Of a DNA stretch of 64,000 nt, positions 37 through 36,129 are shown in pieces; within the stretch, counting starts at the first letter, position 1, and each line of letters starts with the position of its first letter. Below the pieces are notes generated by a model. It was not told the origin of the DNA, ran no database searches, and saw nothing but the letters and a program-made list of their open reading frames with translations. This DNA is from Qaidamihabitans albus (GTDB lineage Bacteria > Actinomycetota > Actinomycetes > Mycobacteriales > Pseudonocardiaceae), in assembly GCF_016464705.1 (NCBI RefSeq), contig NZ_JAEHOB010000007.1, positions 186,001 to 250,000 on the forward strand, given 5' to 3'. Both the position numbers and the translations under genes were made by a program.

Positions 37-504
37 TCAGGTTCTCGCGGCGCGTTCCAGCAGCGGGCGCACGCGCTGCGGCACCGGCGTGGACAGGGCG
101 ATCGAGGTGGACGTCCTGCGCACGCCCGGCACACCGACCACCTCGTCGATCACGCGCTGCAAGTCGTCGTTGGAGCGCGCGACCATACGCACGAACAGAT
201 CCCCCTGGCCGGTGGTCGCGTGCACCTCGCACACCTCGTCGATCGCGGCCAGCGCCGCGGCCACCTCGGCACGGCGGCCCTGCGCGATCTCCAGCACGGC
301 GAACGCCGTGAGCCCGTAACCCATCGCCGCCAGGTCGAGCTCTGGGGGAAAGCCGGTGAGCACCCCGCGCTCGGTGAGCCGGTCGAGCCGGGCCTGCACG
401 GTGCCGCGCGCGACGCCGAGCCGCCGGGCGCATTCCAGCACGCCCAGCCGTGGTGCGTCGGTGAGCAGCAACAGCAGCCGGGCGTCCAGCGCGTCCAGAC
501 TCAC
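37..504 (-). CDS. Lrp/AsnC family transcriptional regulator
   Basis: A 155-residue protein of normal Lrp/AsnC length. The N-terminal winged helix-turn-helix covers about residues 5-50 (recognition helix near GVARGTVQARLDRL). An RAM/ACT-like ligand-binding and oligomerisation domain follows at about 62-140 (GYGLTAFAVLEI, then the GQGDLFVRMVA region). The GTG start has a strong AGGAGG-type ribosome binding site. The gene is divergent from hppD, and the gap between them holds repeated GATTC/GAATC half-sites, so it probably controls hppD in response to an aromatic amino acid or keto acid. The effector is inferred; the family call is firm. Confidence 0.93.
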   Translation of the reverse strand: MSLDALDARLLLLLTDAPRLGVLECARRLGVARGTVQARLDRLTERGVLTGFPPELDLAAMGYGLTAFAVLEIAQGRRAEVAAALAAIDEVCEVHATTGQGDLFVRMVARSNDDLQRVIDEVVGVPGVRRTSTSIALSTPVPQRVRPLLERAART

Positions 505-5203: not shown

Positions 5204-6721
5204 TCACCACTGCTGCGGCGGCTGACCGGGTTGCTGCTGGCCGGGCTGTCCGTAGCCACCTGGCTGACCGGGCTGACCGGGTGGCGGACCGCCGAAACCA
5301 CCCGGCTGCTGCGGCGGCTGGCCGGGCTGGCCGAAGCCGCCGGGCTGACCAGGCTGGCCGGGCTGTCCAGGTTGGCCATAGCCACCTGGCTGACCGGGTG
5401 GCGGGCCACCGGGCTGTCCCGGCTGCGGGAACCCACCGCTGCCCGGGTTGGGCCCGCCGGGCTGGCCGTAGCCGGGCTGCTGGAAACCACCGGGCTGGCT
5501 CGGCGGGCCGTAACCACCCTGCGGCGGCGGGAAGCCGCCGCCCGGCGGGCCGAAGCCACCGGGACCACCGAAGCCACCGGGAGCACCCTGGCCACCGCCG
5601 AGACCCACGAACTGCGCGGTGGCCGGGATCAGCCCGAGCACCCCGACCGCGAGGGCGAGGATGCCGATGATCAGGTACAGCACGGGTGTGCCCGGACCGC
5701 TGAAGTCGTCCGCCGCGGCCCCGAGTTGCTGCCGCGCATCGGAGGAGATGGTGGTACCCACCATGATCAGGATGGCGAACAGCACGAGCAGGAACCCGCC
5801 CGCGGCCGCCAGGATCGGCACGACCTTCTTGAAGACCGCACCCAGCTTGCTCACCATGGCGAGCAGGACACCGCTCGCCAGCACCATGATCGCACCCAGC
5901 AGGACCATGATGATGTAGAACCGCAGGGTGCCGAGCGAGGCGAAGCCCAGTTGCTCGAAGGCCCTGTCGATGTCTTCCTGGCTGATGTTGGCCTGACCCT
6001 CGGTGAGGTCCCCGGTCATGTCGGTGACGTCGATGATCGCGAAGATCGCGGCGACGAGACCGAGCAGCGCCAGTACACCGCCGGCGACCCAGCCGAACAG
6101 CTGGTTGTTGCCGCCGCCCGCGCCTTGCGGCGGCGGGCCGAACCCTGGTGGCGGGCCGCCGTACGGGCCGGGATATCCCTGCTGCGGAGGTGCGCCGAAG
6201 CCACCCTGCCCCTGCGCCGGGTCGAACCCGCCCGGCTGGCCGAAGGCACCGGGCTGCCCCGGCGGCGGGCCGCCGTATCCGGGCGGCGGGCCGTAGCCCC
6301 CCGGCTGCTGCTGGCCGAAACCGCCCTGCTGTTCCTGGCCGAAGCCGCCCGGCTGCTGGCCGAAGCCGCCCTGGGGGTTCATCGCGGCGGGGTTGTCGGC
6401 CGCACTCGGCGGTGGCGCGTACGGAATCGAGGGCGGAGGCTGCGAACCCGGCGGTACGAGCTGGGTGGAATCCGCACCGGGGCCCTCCCCCTGCTGGCCC
6501 CCGGTGTCCTGCTCACCACCGGGCTGCGGCGGCTGTACCACCTGGGTCGGTTCCGGGCTGTCGCCGAACTGCTGTTCCCCCTGCGGCTGCTGTGGCTGGA
6601 CGACGTGCGTCGGTTCCGGGGATCCGAACGGGCTGTCCTGCTCAGGCTGGGAACCACTCGGAGGGCCCTGCGGCGGCTGCCCACCGCCCCAGGGCTGATT
6701 CGGTGGCTGCGGAGCACTCAT
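5204..6721 (-). CDS. Gln/Gly/Pro-rich membrane protein with four-helix core (DUF5336-like)
   Basis: The 505-residue protein has three parts. Residues 1-205 are a disordered Q/G/P-rich region containing three [10 protein letters not shown]-like or related acidic units. Four transmembrane helices follow at about 209-232, 268-290, 300-322 and 347-370. The tail, 375-505, is built from [11 protein letters not shown]-type repeats. A four-helix core with a proline-rich tail resembles the mycobacterial 34 kDa antigen (Rv0954, DUF5336); that assignment is tentative. The ATG at 6721 was preferred to 6772 because AAGGGGG precedes it and the first 17 codons of the longer frame look non-protein-like. Its place between cbs and metB matches the M. 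tuberculosis proline-rich antigen gene pra (Rv1078), although the folds differ. Confidence 0.85.
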
Positions 6722-6841
6722 GTGGGTCTTGAACCCCCTTGACGAGGACCTAAATGAAATTGGCTCGCGCACACGCTAGCGGATCGGGGTACTGATCGCT
6801 CGTAACGCCCCGACCAGCCGTGGCGATGTCACATGATTCGG

Positions 6842-27696: not shown

Positions 27697-28149
27697 CTAC
27701 CCCACTGACATGTGGCCTGGATTCCAACCAGCAACATCCACTAAGCGTCCACGCCAGTGCGCACCCTCCTGCGGAGCCATTTGTGCGCCGACAAAGAACC
27801 GTGCATTACGGAGGTGAATGAACCCAGTCACTGGCTTATCTGTATCATCCTGCGAGTCATCATGTTGCGAGTCATCCTCACTTGGGGAGTCAGTTGAGTC
27901 AACGTCGTCGTATTGTCGTCTCACCTGATTGAAAAAATGCGCGAACGGAGCCTCTTCCTCACTGCCCGAAGCTTGCTGGAAGAGATCGGCTACCTCACTC
28001 ATCCAGAGGCGGCCCGGTATCAGCTGCCCTGTGACCATTCCTGAGGGCATGCTGAGTGTAATACCCATAGAGGCATCACTAGATTGAGCATTTATGATTT
28101 CGACGAGGTATCTCAGGACGTGATCGACGTCGTCGTCTAGGGTGTTCAA
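27697..28149 (-). CDS. GvpU-like protein (gas vesicle accessory family), AICE cargo
   Basis: The 150-residue protein matches the layout of Priestia megaterium GvpU. An N-terminal part (YLVEIINAQ through GITLSMPSGMVTGQLIPG) leads to an acidic low-complexity segment of about 25 residues (DDVDSTDSPSEDDSQHDD). The signature end follows: FIHLRNARFF, then HWRGRLVDVAGWNPG. GvpU is a gas-vesicle clustering protein, but no other gvp gene is in the window, so a gas-vesicle role is doubtful. The TTG start has a GAGAGGGG ribosome binding site. Lower GC than neighbours suggests separate acquisition. Confidence 0.72.
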   Translation of the reverse strand: MNTLDDDVDHVLRYLVEIINAQSSDASMGITLSMPSGMVTGQLIPGRLWMSEVADLFQQASGSEEEAPFAHFFNQVRRQYDDVDSTDSPSEDDSQHDDSQDDTDKPVTGFIHLRNARFFVGAQMAPQEGAHWRGRLVDVAGWNPGHMSVG

Positions 28150-28232
28150 GAGCTGATGCCCCTCTCGTAGTTGCGCTTACTTGCCCTCCCATCGATCCGT
28201 CGGAGGTTTTTGTTTCAAGACGCGACCCGCTT

Positions 28233-28376
28233 GCTGGTCATCCCGTCGCCTGATGGCGTCTCGATCACGCCGTGTCGGGGCCGCAACCGTGGCTGCCATC
28301 CGCCGGGCCGAACTTGCCAGGCTTGCGGTCCCGGCGCGGTGTGATAGCCATCAGGGCAGGCGACGGGATGACCAGC
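28233..28376. repeat. Long imperfect palindrome 1 in gene-poor AICE region
   Basis: Outer arms 28233-28257 and 28347-28375 are reverse complements apart from a four-base insertion. Inner arms 28265-28287 and 28323-28345 continue the stem with about four differences. The whole can fold into one ~140-base hairpin. The 28150-28656 interval has no credible gene. It may be a single-strand replication origin or a structured RNA. Confidence 0.7.
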
Positions 28377-28480
28377 TGGTGACCAGCCACTCCCCCGGTC
28401 CCGTAGCACTCGGCTCGCGCTTGGGCCCATCCCGGAGCCTGCCCGCCCGGCGAGGGCATCTGTTCACAGCTTCCCTGTTT

Positions 28481-28609
28481 GGCGGCCCCTCCGGCGGGTG
28501 GCCGCTGGCCGCCTCACGGCCGACGCCCGCGGAGGACCGGCGGCAGCCGCACGCCTCCGCTGGGGCGTCGGCCATGAGCACAGAGGCCAGCGGCCCCGGA
28601 GGGGCCGCC
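28481..28609. repeat. Long imperfect palindrome 2 in gene-poor AICE region
   Basis: Arms 28481-28510 and 28585-28609 pair with one five-base bulge (GGCGGCCCCTCC with GGAGGGGCCGCC). A nested stem follows, 28518-28534 with 28554-28573 (GGCCGACGCCC with GGGGCGTCGGCC). It stands about 100 bases after palindrome 1 and 48 bases before the stop of the 28657 gene. Confidence 0.7.
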
Positions 28610-28656
28610 TTGAACAAGTAAGGAAACTCTGAACACGGCAGGCTGTCGCCGGTCGA

Positions 28657-29043
28657 TCAGCAGTTCAGCAGCTCCGGCTTCTGATTGAGCACCTGGGCGC
28701 GGGCGGAGGTGAACTCGGCGTACTCCTTGGTGGCCGTGGGCTGGAACAGGCCGACCTTGCAGCAGTTCTGGAAGGCCAGCCGGGCGCCGAAGTGCTTCTC
28801 GACGGCTGAGCGCATGGAGTCGCTGGCGACCAGCCGGAAGAGCTGTCCCCATGCCTCTTCGGTCGGCGGGACCTCTTCGTTGACTGCGAACGGCTCGCCG
28901 TTGGACTGGAGATCCTTCGCCACGTTGGAGACGACAGACCACGCATAGGGCAGTGATTCCTGGATGCACCGGAGGAAGTCGGCGTCGTTGATGTCTCCTG
29001 CTTCGGCTTGCGCCTGAAGGGCAGCCGGAACGTTGAGCGACAC
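28657..29043 (-). CDS. SCO5389 family protein
   Basis: The 128-residue protein matches the actinobacterial SCO5389 family: SLNVPAALQAQAEAGDI at the start, SLPYAWSVV, GQLFRLVASDSMRSAVEKHF, LAFQNC, and the end RAQVLNQKPELLNC. Function is unknown. The family is usually a chromosomal core gene, so a copy on an AICE is notable. The GTG start is supported by AAGGAGAG directly upstream. It is transcribed towards the hairpin region. Confidence 0.8.
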   Translation of the reverse strand: MSLNVPAALQAQAEAGDINDADFLRCIQESLPYAWSVVSNVAKDLQSNGEPFAVNEEVPPTEEAWGQLFRLVASDSMRSAVEKHFGARLAFQNCCKVGLFQPTATKEYAEFTSARAQVLNQKPELLNC

Positions 29044-30417: not shown

Positions 30418-30500
30418 CCCGCTTTCAGTCATTTCTGAATAGCCCTCCCTTTTCACGGTAAGTAGCCCGTTCGAGTCGGGCGAGGGCGCTCCTGTGTTCT

Positions 30501-30531
30501 TTGACAATTCCAGAGTGGGCCGAGCTATGTT
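30501..30531 (+). promoter_or_regulatory. Possible promoter of the small-gene/transfer operon
   Basis: TTGACA at 30501-30506 and TATGTT at 30526-30531 are separated by 19 bases, a near-consensus sigma-70 pair with slightly long spacing. It lies in the 225-base gap after the Pra-like gene and upstream of a run of plus-strand genes from 30643. Confidence 0.45.
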
Positions 30532-30642
30532 TAAATTCGCGCTTATTTGTGGTAGCGCGCCTTGATTCCCGGCGCATTCTTCCGGGGGTCTTGGGGTTCC
30601 ACCACAAAGTACCCGTCCGTAACCAGTTAGTGAGGTGAAACC

Positions 30643-34704: not shown

Positions 34705-34741
34705 CAGGGCAGGCCACGGCATCCCGCTGTGGCCTGCCCTG
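34705..34741 (+). terminator. Intrinsic terminator before the rep gene
   Basis: A perfect 13-bp stem (34705-34717 with 34729-34741) has an 11-base loop and is followed by CCGTTTT. It separates the transfer genes from the rep-xis-int operon. Confidence 0.85.
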
Positions 34742-34770
34742 CCGTTTTGCGCGCTGTGAATGGAGACCCG

Positions 34771-36129
34771 ATGTATCCCGAGCACGACCCCACATCGCTG
34801 GCCGACCGCGTACAGCAGCGACTTACCCATCCGCATTACCGGCGCTGGCGCACCCACGTGGAAGCCGTCGGCGGCTGCTCCAAGCCGGTGCACCTCACCG
34901 GGCACCGCACCATCACCGACGCTGCCACCGGCACTGTCCTCGACCGGCACAGCGGCACCGTGTTCACCCCCTGCGGCAACCGCCGCGAGAGTGTGTGCCC
35001 GGCCTGTTCCGACCGCTACGCCGCGGACGCCTTCCACCTGCTGCGTAGCGGCATGTCCGGCGGCAAAACCATCCCCGAGACGGTGGCCGACAAACCGCGG
35101 GTGTTCGTCACCGTCACCGCCCCCGGCTTCGGCCCCGTGCACACCCGGCGCACCACCACAGGCGGGAAGGTCATCCCCTGCCGCTGCGGCGAGCATCACA
35201 ACCCCGCCGACACTCGCCTCGGCACCGCCATCGATCCCGAGCGCTACGACTACCGCGGCGCGGTGCTGTGGCAATACCACGCCGGGGCACTCTGGCACCG
35301 GCTGATCATCACCATCCGCCGCACCCTCGCCGCGACCGCTGGGATCCGGGTCAAAGACCTCCCCCAGCACGTCCGGCTCTCCTACGCCAAGGTCGCCGAA
35401 TACCAGAAGCGCGGGCTGGTGCACTTCCACGCCGTGTTCCGCCTCGACGGCCCCGACGGACCACACGACTCCGCTCCCGCCTGGGCCGACTCCCGCACCC
35501 TGACCCGCGCGATCAACACCGCGGTGGCCGCTACCGAGCTACACCGCACGCTCACCCTCGACGGGCAACCCGAACGGCACACCTTCCGCTTCGGCACCCA
35601 GCTCGACACGCGCGCCATCCGCCCTGCCCATGCCCACCGGATCGAGGACGACGGCGGGGACATCACCGATCGCGCCCTGGCCGGATACATCGCCAAGTAC
35701 GCCATCAAAGGCACCTCAACCAGCGAAGTCCCCGACCGGCCGATCCGCTCGGAACGCCACATCGATCTCGTACCGGTGCACCCGCACCACAAACGCATGA
35801 TCACCACCGCATGGGAACTCGGCGGCAACGACGACGTGGGCCTGCTGCGCAAGTGGGCGCACATGTTCGGCTTCCGCGGTCACTTCCTCACCAAAAGCCA
35901 GCGCTACTCGCTGACCTTCCAGCACCTACGCGGCACCCGCCGGGCCTGGCAGCAGCACCAAGCCCTCGATGACCTCGGCGCCAGCGAAGACACCGTGCTC
36001 GTGATCAACCACTGGCGACACACCGGCAACGGCTACGCCAGCGAGGCCGAACGCGAACTCGCAGAAGCGATCTACCAGCGCAAACGCCAGCACCGCCAAC
36101 ACCGCCACGAACAGGAGAAGCACCCATGA
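34771..36129 (+). CDS. RepSA-type rolling-circle replication initiator
   Basis: The 452-residue protein has an N-terminal Cys-rich part (CGNRRESVCPACSDRYAADA), a GKVIPCRCGEHH unit, the HUH motif His218-Phe-His220 in GLVHFHAVFRL, and the tyrosine pair Tyr306/Tyr310 in GYIAKYAIKG. These match RepSA-type initiators that nick the element's origin for rolling-circle copying after excision. The ATG at 34771 follows TGGAGA. It overlaps xis by ATGA, so rep-xis-int form one operon as in pSAM2. Confidence 0.92.
   Translation: MYPEHDPTSLADRVQQRLTHPHYRRWRTHVEAVGGCSKPVHLTGHRTITDAATGTVLDRHSGTVFTPCGNRRESVCPACSDRYAADAFHLLRSGMSGGKTIPETVADKPRVFVTVTAPGFGPVHTRRTTTGGKVIPCRCGEHHNPADTRLGTAIDPERYDYRGAVLWQYHAGALWHRLIITIRRTLAATAGIRVKDLPQHVRLSYAKVAEYQKRGLVHFHAVFRLDGPDGPHDSAPAWADSRTLTRAINTAVAATELHRTLTLDGQPERHTFRFGTQLDTRAIRPAHAHRIEDDGGDITDRALAGYIAKYAIKGTSTSEVPDRPIRSERHIDLVPVHPHHKRMITTAWELGGNDDVGLLRKWAHMFGFRGHFLTKSQRYSLTFQHLRGTRRAWQQHQALDDLGASEDTVLVINHWRHTGNGYASEAERELAEAIYQRKRQHRQHRHEQEKHP

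Follow-up and report, generated by a model that had tools for sequence, protein, structure and literature searches.

A 64,000-nucleotide stretch of the Qaidamihabitans albus genome (contig NZ_JAEHOB010000007.1, positions 186,001 to 250,000; hereafter the window, in whose numbering all positions are given) carries an actinomycete integrative and conjugative element (AICE), within which a non-coding element of ~410 nt (28233-28640) probably functions as the single-strand (minus) origin, of the sti or sso (single-strand origin) type, in a variant with an extra module. This assignment rests on comparative sequence analysis; that the element is a conserved single-stranded DNA (ssDNA) structure is more probable still. 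The element consists of a hairpin (H1), a conserved linker, a second hairpin (H2) and a 3' tail, CTTGAACAAG-TAAGGAAACTCTGAACA. It is for H2 and the tail that comparison supports a sti-like origin, because they are homologous to the sti region of pIJ101-type plasmids, always take the same strand and place with respect to rep, and have a strand-specific fold of DNA type. H1 with its linker and H2 with its tail are separable modules with different distributions.

Structure of the element

H1 (28233..28376, + strand) and H2 (28481..28609, + strand) are long imperfect hairpins, identified by folding against shuffled sequences and by comparing hairpins across loci. Both fold over nearly their whole length (z between -7.9 and -9.6, whichever strand is used), and none of 200 shuffles folded equally well, so that the two giant hairpins described in an earlier, sequence-only reading of this DNA are real. 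The whole 507-nt stretch folded as ssDNA gives z -8.2. That reading also saw no convincing gene between 28150 and 28656, and we agree: the open reading frames there merely read across the palindromes, with no sign of a real gene among them. Like an sso, the element therefore has long imperfect palindromes within a non-coding part of a rolling-circle replicon.

The linker motif CATCCCGGAGCCTGCCCGCCCGGCGAGGGCATC (28427..28461, + strand) is a direct repeat of the 5' arm of H1 (28239) and complementary to its 3' arm; its core has three copies within the window, all inside the element, and CATCCCG is repeated three times across the linker and the H1 arms. Immediately 3' of the linker, GTTCACAGCTTCCCT (28462-28476, + strand) is predicted, in the minimum free energy fold, to pair around H2 with AGGAAACTCTGAAC (28621-28634); since this helix would close H2, H2 and the 28609-28636 tail would form one domain. 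On the + strand this domain contains an inner hairpin, CGGC-GGCA-GCCG, with a GNNA loop (28538-28549), a terminal hairpin, GCGGCCCC-GGA-GGGGCCGC, with a GNA loop (28590..28608), the mini-hairpin CTTGAACAAG (28609..28618), and the tail block TAAGGAAACTCTGAACAC (28619..28636), which is the most conserved single block and directly 3' of which sequence divergence begins. At all tail loci homology ends abruptly after TGAACA and differing sequence lies beyond, as if cargo had been exchanged there.

Conservation and position relative to rep

Comparison with other AICEs, which the sequence-only reading had proposed as a check, covered 19 related elements and showed just two stretches of non-coding DNA to be conserved, 28200-28640 and 30.46-30.8 kb. 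Counterparts of a ~440-bp region, at 74-79% identity, are present in AICEs from other genera and in another AICE of this genome. Besides that second copy of the element, the genome holds a relic (G000:C45:10949-11328 and G000:C34:80807-80977). The tail pattern occurs in more than 100 genome-contig stretches, nearly all from actinomycetes, including Streptomyces, Lentzea, Amycolatopsis and Actinoplanes, and the H2/tail module at more than 100 actinomycete loci; a strong hairpin stands upstream of the H2-like hairpin in 64 of 128 tail loci. Matches of the genome-wide pattern scan in Lachnospiraceae, Methanosarcina and Paludibacteraceae were without the hairpin and were rejected as chance. The viral contigs searched gave no match, and the short pattern GTGTGRTAGCC occurs at chance level.

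Among 150 Pseudonocardiaceae genomes we found 99 tails, 57 of them with a strong match to RepSA, the rolling-circle initiator, within 25 kb among the matches listed. In all 57 the tail is on the same strand as RepSA and 4.8-13.4 kb upstream of it; none is downstream or opposite. In 197 genomes drawn from the class, RepSA is near ~19 of the 26 looser matches, all in the same orientation (counted by eye from two tables). The element thus has the orientation fixed relative to rep and the leading strand that is typical of an sso, and its relatives in the plasmids pIJ101, pSN22 and pJV1 also lie on the rep strand.

Homology to Streptomyces plasmids

We built a sequence profile from 60 AICE tails alone, with plasmids excluded; it matches pIJ101 at 7321-7273 (E 5.6e-7), pSN22 at 353-390 (E 8e-6) and plasmids of S. 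silaceus (E 9e-9) and S. subrutilus (E 2e-4). The strict tail pattern missed pIJ101, which was found by a looser pattern and by the profile. The pIJ101 region (7374-7265, - strand) is 83% identical to pSN22 291-398 (+ strand), with a similar region at pJV1 6694-6809 (+ strand), and the end of the pIJ101/pSN22 region, GGGCCGC-CTTGAT..GTAGGGAAAGT, matches the AICE tail. The 21-nt block GGGGCGGAGACAGGAGCGGGC recurs, with at most three differences, in pIJ101, pJV1, a further two plasmids and 38 of the 39 AICE elements of Streptomyces type. In pIJ101 the region at 7.3 kb lies ~1.3 kb downstream of where rep ends. Published work assigns sti, 0.2 kb in size, to a fragment of ~1.2 kb on the downstream side of the replication region, and has spdA2 separating rep from the sso (PMC9761944, PMC11985553, PMC4170104). 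The AICE element is in this way homologous to a characterised sso, the pIJ101 region being identified as sti from published positions.

Strand preference of the fold

When H2 and the tails were aligned with MAFFT and folded with RNAalifold, the varying stem lengths left little or no structure to be recovered; hairpins were instead detected with strand-blind scoring and counted per sequence. G.T pairs outnumber A.C pairs in H2 (511 against 253; composition-corrected p 9e-12) and in H1 (306 against 187; p 2e-4), while weak background hairpins (322 against 368) have no bias after the same correction. Because related sequences are among those counted, the p values err on the optimistic side; by locus, H2 favours G.T in 83 cases against 21. 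The terminal hairpin exists in 42 distinct versions, in which each of pairs 1-9 is seen as both G-C and C-G, and its pairs are 95-100% paired with the exception of pair 5 (76%). Its loop is GNA or GNNA at 112 of 121 loci, just 4 of 45 GNNA loops being GNRA. Per distinct hairpin, 40 of 120 loops are GNA or GNNA, compared with 228 of 4309 in the DNA on either side; the complementary TNC and TNNC loops account for just 2 of 120. Loops of GNA and GNNA form exceptionally stable DNA hairpins (PMC4686876), and hence the loop types, together with the G.T bias, point to a structure of single-stranded + strand DNA.

The H1 and linker module

H1 and the linker are a separate module of Pseudonocardiaceae type: the linker stands beside 42 of 90 Pseudonocardiaceae-type tails, against 0 of 39 Streptomyces-type tails. 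A plasmid search with the whole region matched only the linker, which is identical at 34 of 34 positions in the Streptosporangium plasmid NZ_CP109466. There H1 and the linker occur without H2 and tail, and the plasmid initiator does not match RepSA. This plasmid (L201:14619-14895) is 16.3 kb long, with gene content that recurs in a unit of 8.1 kb, and encodes an FtsK-like protein, ParA and an ORF2/G2P-like initiator beside H1 and the linker, with no RepSA tail.

The same hairpin architecture and linker, here CTGCCCGTCCGGCGAGGACA, recur as a dispersed intergenic repeat in Pseudonocardiaceae (L222-L268, for example L249:2855-3220). Copies of the linker motif reach 68 in genome G315, 48 in G055, 44 in G293, 36 in G359 and 35 in G337, a control pattern being near zero. 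In G342 and G375 all 21 copies examined are intergenic, and where genes are called to the left and right of a copy, half of the copies lie between convergent genes. Some copies have collapsed between CATCCCG repeats. Unlike the AICE element, the repeat is solo, multicopy, lacks H2 and tail, and has no strand bias (52:72). The presence of H1 and linker alone, and on an unrelated rolling-circle plasmid, makes the role of H1 less certain. The sti-like origin of the sequence-only reading, which took in both hairpins, is upheld by homology, strand, position and fold for H2 and its tail and is less certain for H1. Probably the H1 and linker module is specific to Pseudonocardiaceae and serves as an accessory or a second initiation module; as a lineage-specific add-on it may be a second initiation site or a captured repeat.

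Alternative explanations

In the pC194 group the nick site is CTTG^AT, and an origin of another kind would combine both functions here, with the tail as double-strand origin (dso), nicked by RepSA at CTTG^A (28612), and H1-H2 as a flanking sso. According to a review, as cited in PMC3218068, pSAM2 is placed in that group by its RepSA motifs and nick site. Three degenerate AICEs (L063 ~7649; L073 ~7808, - strand; L050 ~7844, - strand) retain H1-H2, or linker and H2, fused exactly after the CTTG of the mini-hairpin to the 3' portion of int. At the break, int relatives have CTSG (L063) and CTTG (L073), L050 having no intact relative that covers it; two other relics (L048, L049) are broken elsewhere in the element. 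The breaks at CTTG hint that a strand is cut there, whether by RepSA or through microhomology, and a CTTG..GAAA site is present in all of 10 AICEs only in the tail. Set against this is a separate conserved block (30461..30615, + strand) with GCGCGCCTTGATTCCCGG, a CTTG at 30561-30564, TTTGACAATT and a GCGCG inverted repeat, which we regard as the better dso candidate and which resembles GCGCCTTGGGAAAG upstream of pSN22 rep; pIJ101 and pSN22 carry the same module at the sti position, their dso being taken as near rep. We dropped the tail as the only dso once the sti homology and this second block had appeared, and consider a combined origin distinctly unlikely. Also improbable is a composite arrangement in which a sti-type sso is joined by a separately mobile H1 and linker, with dozens of chromosomal copies, and RepSA would cut the sso tail at CTTG, giving rise to relics and cargo swaps.

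Two further explanations appear very improbable. The structured RNA offered as the other option by the sequence-only reading would be transcribed from the + strand, and would suit the strong fold, the covariation and the tolerance of G.U on that strand; yet Rfam gave no credible family at gathering or relaxed thresholds, a scan limited to sigma-70-like promoters found no promoter-like site on the + strand of the element, and no terminator was seen there. The loops, too, are GNA or GNYA rather than GNRA or UNCG, the flanking genes are both antisense, and the homologue is a plasmid DNA origin. We give equally little credence to a clt transfer locus for the FtsK-type Tra, or an array of protein-binding sites, with hairpins as by-products. 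The element does travel with Tra and GntR, CATCCCG stands three times in the linker and H1 arms, and the Streptosporangium plasmid also has its FtsK-like gene; but no obvious repeat array was noticed in H2 or the tail, although no dedicated repeat search was made, and the strand bias and loop types require a single strand.

Several observations tell against a single-strand origin. Of the 99 Pseudonocardiaceae tails, 42 have no strong RepSA within 25 kb among the matches listed, some of these being relics or at contig ends. The profile match to pJV1 (E 0.036) is weak alone, and the pIJ101 region at 7.3 kb is equated with sti through published distances, not by comparison with the sti sequence. 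The relic breaks suggest a strand cleavage that an sso does not need, and the lack of strand bias among solo H1 copies leaves an sso role for H1 unsupported by the strand test.

Setting within the AICE

The AICE setting named in the sequence-only reading is confirmed: an element of ~10 kb runs from an att repeat at ~27.42 kb to a second at ~37.52 kb, beside tRNA-Leu at 37.54 kb, and encodes GntR (- strand), an SCO3933-type protein, an FtsK-type Tra, DUF2637, RepSA (34729..36129, + strand; PF20199, 474.5 bits) and a tyrosine integrase. Elements of RepSA type replicate by rolling circle (PMC3218068). On the - strand, and so antisense to the element, a weakly GvpU-like gene (27697-28149; 54 bits, below cut-off) adjoins attL, and a gene matching the SCO5389/KH_NucS_shadow family (28657-29043) is AICE cargo; neither extends into the element.

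Proposed mechanism and comparison with known systems

We infer a priming function, and with it a priming enzyme and a dso, for a single-strand origin of the following kind. After excision, RepSA would nick the dso, probably in the block near 30.56 kb, and displace the + strand. The element lies ~1.9 kb 5' of this candidate on the circle, an sso 5' of the dso being the common order (PMC4595007). The stretch 28233-28640 would become single-stranded when leading-strand synthesis was nearly complete, whereupon H1, H2 and the mini-hairpins of the tail would fold. A host priming enzyme may then recognise the folded H2/tail domain and start second-strand synthesis. In the literature searched we found no AICE single-strand origin described by sequence. 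The element gives a widespread and precise consensus by which AICEs are tied to classical Streptomyces plasmids. It also gives a DNA-specific signature in the loops, of help in telling structures of ssDNA from those of RNA purely by comparison, and a defined site for studying how actinomycetes prime the second strand.

By description, the element resembles the ssoA, ssoU, ssoT, ssoW and ssoL origins of Firmicutes plasmids and sso1 of ICEBs1, which are orientation-dependent, act as folded + strand DNA and are flexible in position relative to rep. The likeness to the sti/sso of pIJ101 and to pSN22 and pJV1 extends to GC-rich hairpins on the rep strand with no annotated gene; as far as it is cited in PMC4170104, second-strand priming in pSN22 is reported to be independent of RNA polymerase. 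The AICE element differs from these plasmid regions in that its tail reads WRARGAAACTCTGAACA, it is longer, with a second hairpin module (H1 and linker) 5' of H2 and tail, and it accompanies RepSA, to which the pSN22 Rep has no significant BLAST match.
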